A stretch of DNA of 40,617 bases from Dehalococcoidia bacterium. GTDB lineage: Bacteria; Chloroflexota; Dehalococcoidia; E44-bin15. Positions 33,784 through 39,909 of this stretch are shown in pieces. Each line of letters starts with the position of its first letter. Position 1 is the stretch's first letter. The notes under the pieces were generated by a model. That model worked only from the letters and a program-made list of their open reading frames with translations, did not search any database and was not told the origin of the DNA. Where the stretch lies: the NCBI GenBank assembly GCA_030610655.1, contig JAUWRG010000010.1:1-40617 (forward strand). Direction: 5' to 3'. Position numbers and translations under genes: made by a program.

Positions 33784-34126
33784 GGGGACGAGTGGTTTCG
33801 ACAGGAGAGGAGAGGCTCAGGATTGCAGGCCGAGGTGCCATCGCCTCGCAAAACAGGTGGCAAAAAAGTAACTGACGAATACGTCTACGCTAGCTAAGCG
33901 CTGACACGCCCCCCCCGTTTCCCTCGATGAATGGGGATGGGCGACGAGAAGTCGAGGTGCAGCAATCCAGACGTCGATAAGAGTTGCCTAAGGAAGAATC
34001 GACTGGCCCAGCCGAACTCGGTCGGCAGAGGACGATTGGGCAAGAGCAAAGAGCCGACTAAGCCTGTAGTACATTCTGGGTGGCCCTCTTCTGGACGGGG
34101 AGTTCAACTCTCCCCCGTCTCCACCA
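33784..34126 (+). ncRNA. ssrA: tmRNA (ssrA)
   Basis: 5' GGGGACGAGTGGTTTCGACAGG; 3' GGGGAGTTCAACTCTCCCCCGTCTCCACCA; 5' GGGGACG pairs with CGTCTCC; immediately after smpB. Confidence 0.95.
33859..33897 (+). other. tmRNA-encoded tag reading frame, deduced GKKVTDEYVYAS*
   Basis: GGC AAA AAA GTA ACT GAC GAA TAC GTC TAC GCT AGC TAA; the other two frames hit stops after 3-4 codons. Confidence 0.7.
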
Positions 34127-34520: not shown

Positions 34521-35075
34521 ATGGCAACAACAGAACGTACGATAAATGATGCCCTCGCTGAGGTTCTTAAGGCTAGCGGTGAGCGACCGGATATTTTGGC
34601 CACTGAGCCAAGTGTCTCTGCGGTCATGATTGAAACCGAGGTAATACCGGCTACGTCCGTTGAAATGGCTATAGTCCAGCGTCTCGGCGAGCAGCTTCTT
34701 CTCTCAGGCCAGCTAGTATTGGCATCGTTAGCGGTGATCATGCCGATGAAGCAACGAGATCACTCTGGCCGCCCCTTAAAGCATGAGCTTGCTTTCGCAT
34801 TGGACTTCGACATGGCCCTTTACACAGGCGGAAATCCTGAGAAACACCTACGCTGGCCTCGAACAGGTTGGTTGCGAGGCAACACCATTGCTCTATCATT
34901 CCTCATCCAATTGGCTTCTGTCCCACCCGCAGTCATCGAACACGCGGCTGACAGATTAGTCACCGCAGAAGACAGCCCCTTGGCATTGTTCAGACGAAAA
35001 CTAGCACTTAAGCCATCGATAACTGGGGGCAAGCTCACTCCTCCTGACAGCTTGTCGGGAATGGATCACACATGA
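34521..35075 (+). CDS. Uncharacterised protein; possible stand-alone nuclease-like N-terminal domain of a restriction/DNA-methylase family (remnant?)
   Basis: ERPDILATEPSVSAVMIETEV has a D...ExE nuclease-like look; text ALYTGG...RWPRTGWLRG...SVPPAVIEHAADRL resembles N-termini of some N6-methylase proteins from memory; no methylase follows. Confidence 0.45.
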   Translation: MATTERTINDALAEVLKASGERPDILATEPSVSAVMIETEVIPATSVEMAIVQRLGEQLLLSGQLVLASLAVIMPMKQRDHSGRPLKHELAFALDFDMALYTGGNPEKHLRWPRTGWLRGNTIALSFLIQLASVPPAVIEHAADRLVTAEDSPLALFRRKLALKPSITGGKLTPPDSLSGMDHT

Positions 35076-35192
35076 AGAACGTAACACTCATCAGGCTGCT
35101 AGTCTTCATTGGGCTTGAGAATATAGGCCTCAATCCCAAGCGAGAACCGCGTGCAAACAAGTGAAGACCTATCAGAAGTTTGAGGTAGACGG

Positions 35193-36953
35193 GTGAGAAC
35201 TGATCTTAAATGGTTTCATATCTCGGACATGCATTTCGGAGGTTTCCAGTTCTTCAATAGAAAGGAACTGGCTGACTGCATCCTTGATGCCGCGCGGGAG
35301 AATCTGGGGAAGGGATGGAAGCCCGACTTTGTTGCCATAAGTGGGGATATTGCGTACAGCGCGGACCAAGGTCAATACTCTGACGCAATTTGTTTCCTTG
35401 ACAAACTGCTACAGATGCTCGAACTTCAGCGGGACAGGGTGTCAATGTGTCCTGGAAACCATGACATAGACAGGAATATCAATCGCTATCTCTTTCAGGG
35501 ATGCAGGACAAAGATAGTCTCGGGTCCGGATATTGAAGAATTCCTTCGGTCCCCTGAACGGGCTGCTTTGTTGGAACGGATGGCTCGTTACCGTGAATTC
35601 CGGGAGACATACCAGACATCCGACAGCCAGTTTACCACTGATAGTCGAAGTATTAATGCAGTTAGTCATATGAGTATCGACGGTCTCGACGTGCAGTTGT
35701 GGGAGATGAACTCTGCATGGTTAGGATACGGAGGAGAAGAAGATCGCGATAAGTTAGTTATCGGTAGCTTGTCCTTGAGCCAGTTCATTAAATCACAGCC
35801 ACCACGCGAGGGGTGCATATCTTTCGGGATTATCCATCACCCGTTTCACTGGCTTACAAGTTTCGAGAGTGAACACATCGAGGCCATCTGCTGCGAGAAC
35901 TTCGATTTCGTGCTGCACGGGCACATTCACAAGCCAGCGACAAAGGCCATGATCGTGAATGGGGGTCGGACAATCCTACTGACTGCCGGAGCTCTGCTGC
36001 AAGAATATGAAAGAGATTACCAGTTCTGCCTTGATACCTACAGCATAGCGGATAGTACACTAACGGTGGAGAGTCATCTCTACGTTGCGGAGCAGCGAAA
36101 ATGGTATGTCCATACTGACGTGCTAGAGGTTGAGCCACCTTCATCGTCCAGCCTCGTCACCACGGATGTCTATAGGGAGCTTTTGCAGAGACACGCAGAC
36201 TTCATTGCGCCCGCCCACATGTGCACAGTCATTTGCGGCATCAGTAGTGAAATCGCATTTTGCTGGAATGGATCGCCGAGCTTCTACTCACCAGTGCTGT
36301 TGAAGCAAGGCGAAGCCAGCGATGTGGAAAGTGCAGTGTCACTGCGACAATTTCAGAGGCTCATCCGTTTCTACGGCAAGAACGCGATGAACCATGTCTT
36401 TGCTGAGCATGGGTCACTCATCGAAGAGTATGATAGATTCCTCAAGAGGGAATCTGATACCGCCCCGGCATTCCGGGCAATCTTGACTGCTCGTGAGGAA
36501 GAAGCAAAGACGACACTAGGAACGGAAGTCGCGGACACATCAGCAACATCGTTTATGCAGCTGGGGCTCCGCAGGGCAATCGCCGCAGAAGATATGGCAG
36601 CAACACTAAGATACCTCGCGCTGTGTAAGGCTGACACTTCCTCACCCATTCGTGCAGAGATACTAAAATTCGACGCAAGGATTGTCGATCTCCCTGAGGG
36701 AGTCTCGTTATATGAAGCATGGCTCGAAAGCGACGGTAGCGATGACTTCTCGTTCGAAGACTACTGTGCGATCATCAACAGCCAATCCGTTAAGGGTAAA
36801 TCACAATTGGCAGGTCAGGCAATCCTGAGATGCGCGGAGCTGTATCCGAGTAAATCCGCAGAGAGACTAAACGAGATAGTCCGGAATCTTGCATCCCAGT
36901 ACGGTGACAGGACACTCTACGATCAATTCAAATCCATCACAGACAGGAGCTGA
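35193..36953 (+). CDS. Metallophosphoesterase with uncharacterised C-terminal region
   Basis: FHISDMHFGGFQ, FVAISGDIAYSADQ, MCPGNHDIDR, GIIHHPFHWL, FVLHGHIHKP motifs; GTG start. Confidence 0.9.
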   Translation: MRTDLKWFHISDMHFGGFQFFNRKELADCILDAARENLGKGWKPDFVAISGDIAYSADQGQYSDAICFLDKLLQMLELQRDRVSMCPGNHDIDRNINRYLFQGCRTKIVSGPDIEEFLRSPERAALLERMARYREFRETYQTSDSQFTTDSRSINAVSHMSIDGLDVQLWEMNSAWLGYGGEEDRDKLVIGSLSLSQFIKSQPPREGCISFGIIHHPFHWLTSFESEHIEAICCENFDFVLHGHIHKPATKAMIVNGGRTILLTAGALLQEYERDYQFCLDTYSIADSTLTVESHLYVAEQRKWYVHTDVLEVEPPSSSSLVTTDVYRELLQRHADFIAPAHMCTVICGISSEIAFCWNGSPSFYSPVLLKQGEASDVESAVSLRQFQRLIRFYGKNAMNHVFAEHGSLIEEYDRFLKRESDTAPAFRAILTAREEEAKTTLGTEVADTSATSFMQLGLRRAIAAEDMAATLRYLALCKADTSSPIRAEILKFDARIVDLPEGVSLYEAWLESDGSDDFSFEDYCAIINSQSVKGKSQLAGQAILRCAELYPSKSAERLNEIVRNLASQYGDRTLYDQFKSITDRS

Positions 36954-36957
36954 GATT

Positions 36958-39252
36958 ATGACCAATACAGGATTCCCGATAACAATCGATTTTGAGAGAC
37001 TGCTCAGAACACTCTCCAAGGAAATCTACGACACTCCTATGGCCTTTCTCCGAGAGAACGTACAGAATGCTGTGGATGCCATACGGATGCGCCAAGCCGA
37101 GAATCCCGGTTTCTCCGAAGGGCGCGTGACCGTGAGCGTGGACGAGAAGCTAGTGACGATAACGGACAATGGGGTGGGCATGTCTCAGAAAGACCAACAA
37201 GAGTTCTTCTGGCGCATCGGAGCAAGCGGGAAGAACACGCCGGAGGCAAGAAAAGCAGGGTGCATAGGTACCTTCGGGATAGGTGGATTCGCAAATTTCG
37301 GCGTATGCAACCACCTTGTTGTCACATCCAAGAGAGAAGGGTATCCAGGTTGCCGTACGAGTCTGCAAAGGTCCGATTTTGGTGAATCCACGCCAACCGT
37401 GACCAGCGAACCATGCGAAGCCTCAGGGCCGCATGGCACAATTGTGGAGGCAGAACTGATTAATCCTGGTGACCCCCAGCAGTTGAAGGATTATTTAAAG
37501 AGCTTCGTAATGTATGTGCCAGAACTCGTAACCTTCAATGGGGAGAACATCTCCGGAGCCCAGTTTATGTCTGAAGAGAGCATAGGCAATTTGCAGACGC
37601 TAATGGCTGAACCGGTGCAGCTCAGTCTGTCACCCGATTCCAGGATACAGGCAAGATTCTATAGGGATGATGCAGGAACGATTCACGTGGTAATTGGGGA
37701 ACCGGGTGCCAGTGGTGTGCATGATAGATGTCGCGGATGGCTCAGACTCAATAATGGTACTCTGGAGGCCCTCAAGAAGGGATTCAAACTATGCAACACC
37801 AATGTGTCCAGCTACATTGGGATATCTGGACGTTTGGATATGATCAACTTTGTTCCCACAGCAGGAAGAGATTCCCTTTCTCCTGAATCCCAGCATCTCA
37901 TAAGCACGTTGGCAAGAGCAATCGAAAGGCAGGCCATTGAGATCATTCTGGACTCAACTGATCTGCTATCGCAACACACGCGCATATTGCGACAAGTTGT
38001 CGCAGAAGGTTTGATTGAGCGTCTTGGAAGGCTTGATGTCACCCTCGCTGATGGCACGAAGACTACTCTCGGAAAGCTTCGCGCGAGGCATGAATCCGGA
38101 ACCAGTATCTACTTCGGCTCACAAGTGCAGCGGGAGCTCTTGGATGTACTTCAAGCCAGCGGAAACGTGATTGTGATCCTCTCTTCAGAGAGCGATAGGA
38201 AGAAAGCAGAGACTAACTATCTCTCATCCTACTGCAGCGCGACAAGCTACGAAGGACTTGTCGAAATCAAGGAGAACTACAATGACCTATCGTCGTTCGA
38301 AGTTGACTTCCTTGCCAATCTGGAGGCGGTCATCAAGCTTCGCTATGAAGTGACCGATTTTACCTTGATACCTGCAAGAATAACTGGGGGAGTCCCTGCG
38401 TACGTGCAGGGGAGAAAGGGCTCCCGGACTAGAGTCTATGTAGACGTTCGGCATCAAGAAATCACTCGACTGCACACATTGGAGGGTTCATCTTTCCTGT
38501 ACTCGATCGTGAATGAGTTCTGCAAAGAATACCTTGCGAGCGCGCTCAGAACAAAAAGCCCCAAGTTCTTTGGAAGTGGTGCCCTTGATTTTGACGAGCT
38601 AATCAGAAAACGTGCTGAGTTGTGGAAACTTGCAGAGATCGATATTCTGACATTCGTCCACGCGAGTGAAGGCGGTGCTGTTGAGTCTGATACCCTCGAC
38701 AGGAGTAGGAATCTAACAGGTATCAGGGATGTTCTCAGCCAGTCCGACATGGCGACTGTCGAAGTGGGCGGGGAGAAACCTGAGCAGGTGCAAGGAGACC
38801 AAGGAGAGAATGAGCTATCTGAAGGTACAGGTGCTCCAAAGATACTTAAGCTCATTGACAAGTCGGGATTACTGGGCATTGCTGGTTTCTACATCAAACT
38901 GATGGATGGCCCCGCAAAGGCGTTCGGTGATGATATTCAGGCAATGGAAGAGTCTTCTACTTTCTGGTTCGGCAACCGGATAACGTATGCTTTCACTGAC
39001 GCGAAGAGCATTGTATTCCACTATGAACTGCGGCTGCAGCAAATCATTTTGGCCCAATCAGATACCGAGGAGGACGAGCCAACAGGAGTTGCCCAACTGA
39101 AGAATCCAATACAGGAATACCAGAGTTCGATGTATTTCAGGATACCGGAAGTACTGGAACGATATCTCGTCCCAACTGCCGGTATTGAGATTCTGGTTCG
39201 CGTCAATTATGACTGGTTCGATCTTCAAAGAGGAAAAGCTTGGCCGTGGTGA
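36958..39252 (+). CDS. Hsp90/GHKL-type (Bergerat fold) ATPase with uncharacterised C-terminus
   Basis: FLRENVQNAVDAIRM (N box), VTITDNGVGMSQ (G1), GCIGTFGIGGFANFGVC (G2), GPHGTIVEAEL (G3); start moved to ATG 36958, 4 nt after the upstream stop. Confidence 0.88.
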   Translation: MTNTGFPITIDFERLLRTLSKEIYDTPMAFLRENVQNAVDAIRMRQAENPGFSEGRVTVSVDEKLVTITDNGVGMSQKDQQEFFWRIGASGKNTPEARKAGCIGTFGIGGFANFGVCNHLVVTSKREGYPGCRTSLQRSDFGESTPTVTSEPCEASGPHGTIVEAELINPGDPQQLKDYLKSFVMYVPELVTFNGENISGAQFMSEESIGNLQTLMAEPVQLSLSPDSRIQARFYRDDAGTIHVVIGEPGASGVHDRCRGWLRLNNGTLEALKKGFKLCNTNVSSYIGISGRLDMINFVPTAGRDSLSPESQHLISTLARAIERQAIEIILDSTDLLSQHTRILRQVVAEGLIERLGRLDVTLADGTKTTLGKLRARHESGTSIYFGSQVQRELLDVLQASGNVIVILSSESDRKKAETNYLSSYCSATSYEGLVEIKENYNDLSSFEVDFLANLEAVIKLRYEVTDFTLIPARITGGVPAYVQGRKGSRTRVYVDVRHQEITRLHTLEGSSFLYSIVNEFCKEYLASALRTKSPKFFGSGALDFDELIRKRAELWKLAEIDILTFVHASEGGAVESDTLDRSRNLTGIRDVLSQSDMATVEVGGEKPEQVQGDQGENELSEGTGAPKILKLIDKSGLLGIAGFYIKLMDGPAKAFGDDIQAMEESSTFWFGNRITYAFTDAKSIVFHYELRLQQIILAQSDTEEDEPTGVAQLKNPIQEYQSSMYFRIPEVLERYLVPTAGIEILVRVNYDWFDLQRGKAWPW

Positions 39253-39268
39253 GGGGTGTAAACTACCT

Positions 39269-39423: not shown

Positions 39424-39909
39424 CTAAGACACCTTCTCTGAATAAAGTCGATAGCTTCGTCCTTCTTTTTCTCTGCGTATGAGGCCCATTTGTTCAGCGT
39501 ATATTAGTAAGTTAGATACCTCACGCCCGTCAACACATAGCACCTTGCCGAGTTTGGCTTGGATAAACCCCGGATTTTCCAAAAGGGATGATTCTACTCT
39601 ATCCATCAAATCTGCTCGCTCCAAAGCGAAGTCAACCTCGCTAAGCCATTCCGCAAGCTCCGGTATAGATTTAAGCAGTGTCCTTATACGGTGCAAATCG
39701 TCACGCCGTCGCAAGACGGATAGGTAATGACATGCGTATCCAAGTGGTGGTGAACCCTTTATGTCCCATTGCCCAAATTCCCTAATGGTATCCTTCACTA
39801 ATTGCGGAAGCCACTTTACGGCTTCTAGCGAAAGTTCCAAGGCCTGATAATAGCGTTTTTGGGAACGAGCACGCTCAATATTTTCTAGTAGAGTAAAATA
39901 ATTGCCCAT
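39424..39909 (-). CDS. Hypothetical protein with a possible winged-helix-like C-terminus
   Basis: Open frame of 161 aa co-directional with the small ORF; C-term FIQAKLGKVLCVDGREVSNLLIYAEQMGLIRREKEGRSYRLYSEKVS looks like wHTH. Confidence 0.7.
   Translation of the reverse strand: MGNYFTLLENIERARSQKRYYQALELSLEAVKWLPQLVKDTIREFGQWDIKGSPPLGYACHYLSVLRRRDDLHRIRTLLKSIPELAEWLSEVDFALERADLMDRVESSLLENPGFIQAKLGKVLCVDGREVSNLLIYAEQMGLIRREKEGRSYRLYSEKVS

Follow-up and report, generated by a model that had tools for sequence, protein, structure and literature searches.

A mobile operon pairing a metallophosphoesterase with an Hsp90-like ATPase: a probable immune system of bacteria, so far undescribed

Two intact genes follow ssrA in a Dehalococcoidia contig

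The window analysed here, a stretch of 40,617 nucleotides, is one entire contig (C36) of a near-complete 1.68-Mb genome of a Dehalococcoidia bacterium and carries, downstream of smpB and ssrA, a gene for a metallophosphoesterase (MPE) followed by a gene for an Hsp90-like ATPase, both on the plus strand. The MPE gene (35193-36953, GTG start, 586 aa), which encodes the putative effector, stops 4 nt before the ATG of the ATPase gene (36958-39252, ATG at 36958, 764 aa), the spacing that a preliminary description of this DNA had reported. That description had also placed the region directly 3' of the tmRNA gene, and Rfam locates ssrA at 33784-34126 on the plus strand with 162.5 bits; ssrA is context and lies outside the system. 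ARAGORN missed this tmRNA.

Two further readings in the preliminary description, of the first protein as a calcineurin-like phosphoesterase with all its metal-binding motifs and of the second as a Bergerat-fold ATPase with N and G boxes, proved sound. The MPE gene scores 41.2 bits with the Pfam family Metallophos (PF00149; cut-off 21.5), and its catalytic domain (residues 1-320, 35193-36152) contains the metal-site motifs SDxH, GD, GNHD, HH and GHxH, with D12, H14, D52, N89, H90, H215/H216, H244 and H246, all of them invariant in 18/18 homologues. The remainder of the protein (residues 321-586, 36153-36950) is predicted by AlphaFold2 (AF2) to be an all-helical tail, modelled at low pLDDT. The ATPase scores 44.2 bits against HATPase_c_3 (cut-off 25), and its Bergerat (GHKL) N-domain (residues 1-200, 36958-37557) is marked by E33, N37, D70xGxGM and GTFGIG; in an alignment of homologues, E33, N37, D70, G72, G74, G107 and G109 are invariant in all 19 sequences. 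Both genes are intact and the pair is real. Promoter and terminator scans of the region gave nothing better than shuffled sequence.

The open reading frames around the pair were considered as further components and rejected. The upstream ORF (34521-35075, 184 aa), previously called a nuclease/methylase-like fragment, is what an in-frame deletion has left of a methyltransferase-like protein of ~1016 aa, namely ~157 N-terminal and ~20 C-terminal residues. An intact relative of ~1016 aa is encoded in genome G026 (L138 820-3870, minus strand), near a tyrosine-recombinase-like ORF, and the remnant is absent upstream of the copy of the operon in genome G002 (see below). Downstream, the minus-strand ORF 39424-39909 is gene-like while the other member of the reported small ORF pair is not, and the IS256 copy is present as described, cut by the contig end.

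The ATPase is a divergent relative of Hsp90

The preliminary description had placed the ATPase among MORC/Hsp90-like GHKL proteins and given it a C-terminus of ~550 aa that it called unknown. Fold and profile comparisons retain the Hsp90 part of this assignment and argue against a MORC-like or unknown GHKL protein. In structural comparison, residues 9-435 of the AF2 model (mean pLDDT 77) superpose on TRAP1/Hsp90/HtpG (386 residues aligned at Z 24.7 and rmsd 4.7), and the alignment extends to residue 540 with domain shifts and an rmsd of ~8, the effective coverage of VIA-align reaching residue 539. Profile comparison with HtpG gave an E-value of 6.8e-22 over 499 columns at ~16% identity, and the N-domain matched PDB profiles with an E-value of 2.8e-21. 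The Bergerat domain is followed by a predicted Hsp90 middle-like region of S5 fold (residues 201-433, 37558-38256) with the motif PTAGR. In Hsp90 the catalytic arginine resides in the LNVSRE motif, and in hhalign alignments the PTAGR(D/E) of the ATPase falls on LNVSRE of HtpG; the putative catalytic arginine, R304 (37867-37869), is present in 18/18 homologues.

Residues 434-540 (38257-38577) form a probable Hsp90 C-terminal-like region, assigned from the VIA-align superposition and less sure than the N and middle domains. Most of the supposedly unknown C-terminus therefore appears to be Hsp90 middle and C-terminal-like, and only residues ~540-764 fall outside. Here AF2 predicts strands of a family-specific beta-rich domain (residues ~554-755, 38617-39222) with W, Y and P columns conserved in the family and no convincing sequence match in the PDB (best E 0.005). 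The protein scores far below the NCBIfam cut-offs for HtpG (55.3 bits, cut-off 371) and the HSP90 family (79.9 bits, cut-off 455), and in an N-domain tree with some very long outgroup branches, a single supported clade unites the HtpGs and excludes the ATPase family. Taken together, sequence profiles and models identify the ATPase as a divergent Hsp90 paralogue with N, middle and probable C domains and a new beta-rich C-terminus.

The phosphoesterase is related to anti-phage enzymes

The MPE domain has homologues among characterised anti-phage proteins. DS-8 and DS-9 (DefensePredictor) protect E. coli from phage, and mutations of the metallophosphatase catalytic residues abolish this protection (PMC13092281). 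The DS-8 model NF053861 matches residues 9-297 of the MPE with an E-value of 2.5e-33 (114.9 bits, equivalog cut-off 790), the DS-9 model (DS9_1) matches with 6.9e-18 (64.7 bits, cut-off 420), and profile comparison of the MPE with DS-8-like and GASH-linked MPEs gave 2.5e-31. MPE homologues are also encoded before GASH proteins on plasmids (L101, L103) and occur as MPE-nSTAND fusions. In GAP1-N1 GTPase systems the effector is most often a calcineurin-type domain (PMC7159879). The MPE itself contains no P-loop domain in a Pfam scan and no GAAD, and no GASH or GTPase genes were found in the window neighbourhood.

The AF2 model of the MPE has a mean pLDDT of 63, with the catalytic part better than the rest, and VIA-align covers it effectively to residue 318. 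Its fold matches are YydB (Z 26), Rv0805 (Z 21), SMPDL3A (Z 20) and Mre11 (Z 17), so that, as far as the model goes, the fold is nearer to the phosphodiesterases YydB, Rv0805 and SMPDL3A than to SbcD/Mre11, with which the preliminary description had compared it. This ordering bears on whether the pair could act as a direct nuclease, an SbcD/Mre11-type MPE under the control of the Bergerat-fold ATPase, in the manner of restriction linked to MutL/MORC. It would then degrade invading DNA and not a signal nucleotide, which would still be defence, by a different chemistry. Such a role would agree with the shared superfamily fold of Mre11, with weak SbcD model matches, with restriction-modification (R-M) genes near several homologous loci and with paraMORC operons, which pair GHKL ATPases with nucleases (PMC2292703). 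We nevertheless consider it unlikely: the three phosphodiesterases fit the MPE better than Mre11 does, SbcD models score 11.9-18.5 bits against cut-offs of 78-480, the partner is Hsp90-like rather than MutL, MORC or Rad50, there is no SbcC/Rad50 partner, and the MPE is homologous to DS-8 and DS-9.

The helical tail was compared separately. A tail profile built from 16 short MPE homologues matches consensus TPR proteins, indicating that the tail is TPR-like in the shorter homologues; for the longer tail of the window protein a TPR-like nature would be an extrapolation.

The best fold match, B. subtilis YydB (PDB 9a6c_B), is modelled in complex with YydD, and YydB-YydD is possibly one more combination of an MPE with a partner.

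The two genes are paired in at least six phyla

Homologues of the ATPase were collected with a four-sequence profile; single-sequence pattern searches of the genome and viral collections gave no matches, an alignment query was required, and a profile of the MPE was too divergent to scan a collection with. The ATPase profile retrieved full or contig-truncated homologues at no fewer than 15 loci in genomes and on three IMG/VR contigs, which are counted as viral by their collection record only. Conserved pairing, for which the preliminary description had proposed a survey of other genomes, was found throughout: among the matches listed, an MPE gene lies directly upstream of the ATPase gene at 23/23 independent loci, which are a sample and not a census, and at each of the 23 it ends within a few nt of the ATPase start, the two genes mostly overlapping. 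Every full-length member among these matches keeps the pairing. As controls we used the 65 other loci listed by the same profile search, mostly with ordinary HtpG, otherwise with another GHKL protein, and no such MPE was present in the fetched flanks of any of them. One of the 23 loci, L012, has its MPE broken into two ORFs.

According to their record titles, the carriers belong to Pseudomonadota, Bacteroidota, Myxococcota, Poribacteria, Actinomycetota and Chloroflexota, that is, at least six phyla, and include plasmids of Rhizobium sp. 007 and Pseudomonas aeruginosa. Within the phylum of the window, three of 400 genomes carry the operon, the window's own included. Homologues were found in G002 (same family, other genus) and in G161 (same class, a single-contig genome). 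A plasmid blastn search with the window region gave no match, the P. aeruginosa copy had no counterpart at the DNA level in E. coli genomes, and the window-type subfamily was not present in the viral contigs searched. In the N-domain tree the copies in the window, in Poribacteria and in Acidimicrobiales group together with support, and their MPE is ~590 aa long versus mostly ~490 aa in the rest; the sequence grouping suggests two subtypes of the system.

The public annotation of the Rhizobium sp. 007 plasmid lacks the MPE gene at L006 6529-8001, which is intact and encodes 490 aa; in its place it gives a hypothetical protein on the minus strand and a short fragment.

The operon has been transferred and is under purifying selection

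Comparison with G002 defines a transferred unit. Positions 35074-39255 (plus strand) are 91.3% identical to the G002 copy, which lies at another chromosomal place among metabolic genes, while the smpB-ssrA regions of the two genomes share 75% identity. Since dS is 0.22 for the MPE and 0.18 for the ATPase versus 1.59 for smpB, and since the location differs, we conclude that the pair was transferred horizontally. The corresponding dN/dS values of 0.31 (MPE) and 0.24 (ATPase) indicate that both genes are under purifying selection.

Synteny with eight relatives (L132-L140) ends at position 34126 or 34127, at the end of ssrA, after which most relatives carry an acetyl-CoA synthase/CODH-like gene cluster. 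Another relative, G007, has directly behind ssrA a gene (L140 1589-2674) with a CAP12/Pycsar-type TIR domain, and the spot 3' of ssrA has therefore taken in another defence-type gene. In Dehalococcoides, ssrA is a known integration site of islands (PMC3146451), and in the lineage of the window it looks like a variable, defence-receiving site. The 3' end of ssrA that would serve as an att repeat occurs as a single copy in the whole genome, no flanking direct or inverted repeats were found around the region, and no integrase is visible between ssrA and the contig end; we infer integration at ssrA solely from the sharp break in synteny.

Defence genes adjoin the operon at several loci

In several of its hosts the operon has defence genes for neighbours. 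In a Poribacterium it is flanked by HmaA and HmaB. Elsewhere it adjoins Septu PtuA (Rhizobium), two genes of a type II R-M system (Muribaculaceae), an N-terminal fragment of HsdM, of type I R-M (Acidimicrobiales), LmuA/ABC-3C genes (P. aeruginosa plasmid), a PglZ protein (Polyangiaceae) and a phage integrase (Thiotrichales). The defence-island neighbourhood that the preliminary description wished to see surveyed is thus present in part, several other loci, including the G002 copy, having no named defence neighbour. In two batches, 122 operon neighbours matched 76 and 136 PADLOC families (E<=1e-10), compared with 18 families for 122 control-locus neighbours; because these are counts of redundant models and not of genes, they do not amount to a fold enrichment.

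These neighbourhoods bear on whether the pair might be an accessory stress or signalling module, in which an Hsp90-like chaperone and a phosphodiesterase would have a protein-protecting role or modulate a second messenger and be carried by mobile elements for reasons other than phage defence. In its favour, the Hsp90 family consists of chaperones, the MPE is similar to cyclic-nucleotide phosphodiesterases, and some loci have only metabolic neighbours. The patchy, transferred distribution of the operon, the defence neighbours at several loci, the homology of the MPE to validated anti-phage MPEs and the strict one-to-one pairing with a single gene point away from it, and we give this module only a small chance, slightly below that of the nuclease.

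A short GHKL ATPase (~525 aa) of another type was observed in a cluster with a DGQHR protein and an upstream protein of ~550 aa (L008 2199-9009, L017 7098-11475); the L008 cluster also comprises DEAD helicase and ParB-like genes, and the L017 cluster adjoins an MPE-Hsp90 pair.

The pair differs from named systems in its regulator

No named system joining an MPE with Hsp90 was present in PADLOC 2.0, in NCBIfam 20 or in the main texts of the openly accessible literature searched, in agreement with the preliminary description, which had not recognised the pair. Several systems share one half of it. Like the pair, DS-8 joins an N-terminal metallophosphatase effector domain to a second functional module, but this module is a NACHT/STAND NTPase in the same protein, which our MPE lacks; the second gene of DS-9 encodes a HAD phosphatase. 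The regulator of our pair is instead an Hsp90-like ATPase encoded by a separate gene. GAP1-N1 GTPase systems likewise place a related MPE effector beside a regulatory module, but rely on GASH, GAAD and DO-GTPases, none of which occurs in the pair, and the study describing them mentions neither Hsp90 nor GHKL (PMC7159879). MORC/paraMORC proteins share a GHKL plus S5 ATPase module within mobile conflict-type operons (PMC2292703), yet their partners are SFII helicases and nucleases or methylases, whereas only the MPE is conserved beside our ATPase. SbcCD/Mre11-Rad50 also combines a calcineurin-fold phosphoesterase with an ATPase, but the Rad50/SbcC fold is unrelated. HtpG, Hsp90 and TRAP1 share with our ATPase the N-domain motifs, the S5/middle domain, the position of the catalytic-arginine motif and, probably, a C-terminal region, and differ from it in that the ATPase has its own lineage, an extra beta-rich domain, an obligate MPE neighbour and a patchy distribution. 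Because the defining partners of DS-8, DS-9, GAP1-N1, MORC/paraMORC and SbcCD are missing and the ATPase is not HtpG, we regard the pair as a known type of effector with a new type of regulator.

An Hsp90-like clamp may control a phosphodiesterase effector

The operon is conserved and mobile, both catalytic sites are intact, and defence genes neighbour it at several loci. Its occurrence as a mobile operon in at least six phyla, together with the relationship of its MPE to proven anti-phage enzymes, leads us to conclude that the operon probably encodes a bacterial immune system not yet described, with an Hsp90 fold as its switch. We favour, with moderate confidence, a mobile two-gene conflict system, most likely anti-phage, in which an Hsp90-like clamp controls a phosphodiesterase effector. 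The proposal of a candidate uncharacterised defence system in the preliminary description is supported in part, by the conserved mobile operon, the defence neighbours and the homology to DS-8 and DS-9; its MORC and SbcD/Mre11 analogies fit less well than Hsp90 and DS-8/DS-9 do.

For the mechanism we infer the following sequence of events. The effector would be a di-metal phosphodiesterase of calcineurin fold with a helical, TPR-like tail, and the dedicated Hsp90-like clamp would either keep it inactive or mature it, possibly by way of that tail. Infection might then alter the ATP-driven conformation of the clamp, through the C-terminal beta domain or through a bound phage product, and the freed MPE would cleave a phosphodiester in a nucleotide or nucleic acid, a cyclic or signal nucleotide being a likelier substrate than DNA ends, so that phage growth would be stopped or the infected cell killed. 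In kin systems the same type of MPE effector is joined to a sensing NTPase (NACHT/STAND or GTPase), and by analogy the Hsp90-like clamp would occupy the NTPase slot.

The order of the two genes, effector first, their tight linkage and mostly overlapping ends and their presence on conjugative plasmids could also be those of a toxin-antitoxin-like module in which an MPE toxin is folded or blocked by the ATPase and stabilises a mobile element. An ATPase of 764 aa whose catalytic residues are all conserved would be an unusual antitoxin, and the kin effectors are phage-defence enzymes (PMC13092281), which makes such a module very improbable as the explanation; it overlaps with a clamp controlling an effector, and the two are not mutually exclusive.

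The more specific proposal, that an Hsp90 chaperone fold was recruited into a stand-alone immune system of bacteria, to act there as sensor and as ATP-driven switch over a phosphodiesterase with a TPR tail, is one that we put forward tentatively, as a possibility somewhat short of even. If it is true, the operon would be a prokaryotic counterpart to Hsp90 in eukaryotic NLR immunity and to the pair of Hsp90 and the TPR phosphatase PP5, and Hsp90 itself would be an immune switch, beyond its role as a helper of immune receptors. Anti-phage metallophosphatases have been validated just recently, and in the pair this effector fold is tied to a regulator of a different kind. The family spans at least six phyla and includes isolates open to cloning, such as the non-pathogenic Pseudomonas fluorescens HKI0770 (L023) and Rhizobium sp. 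WYCCWR10014 (L016), both with an intact operon, and a compact two-gene system, if that is what it is, would bring trigger and substrate within experimental reach.

A different combination was seen on a contig of Salmonella Infantis SARB27 that is filed under phages (L141 4986-9133): the gene for an HtpG-like protein of 611 aa lies 3 nt ahead of one whose 769-aa product weakly matches LapB (TPR), so that here too an accessory Hsp90-like gene has a TPR-type partner, but no MPE.
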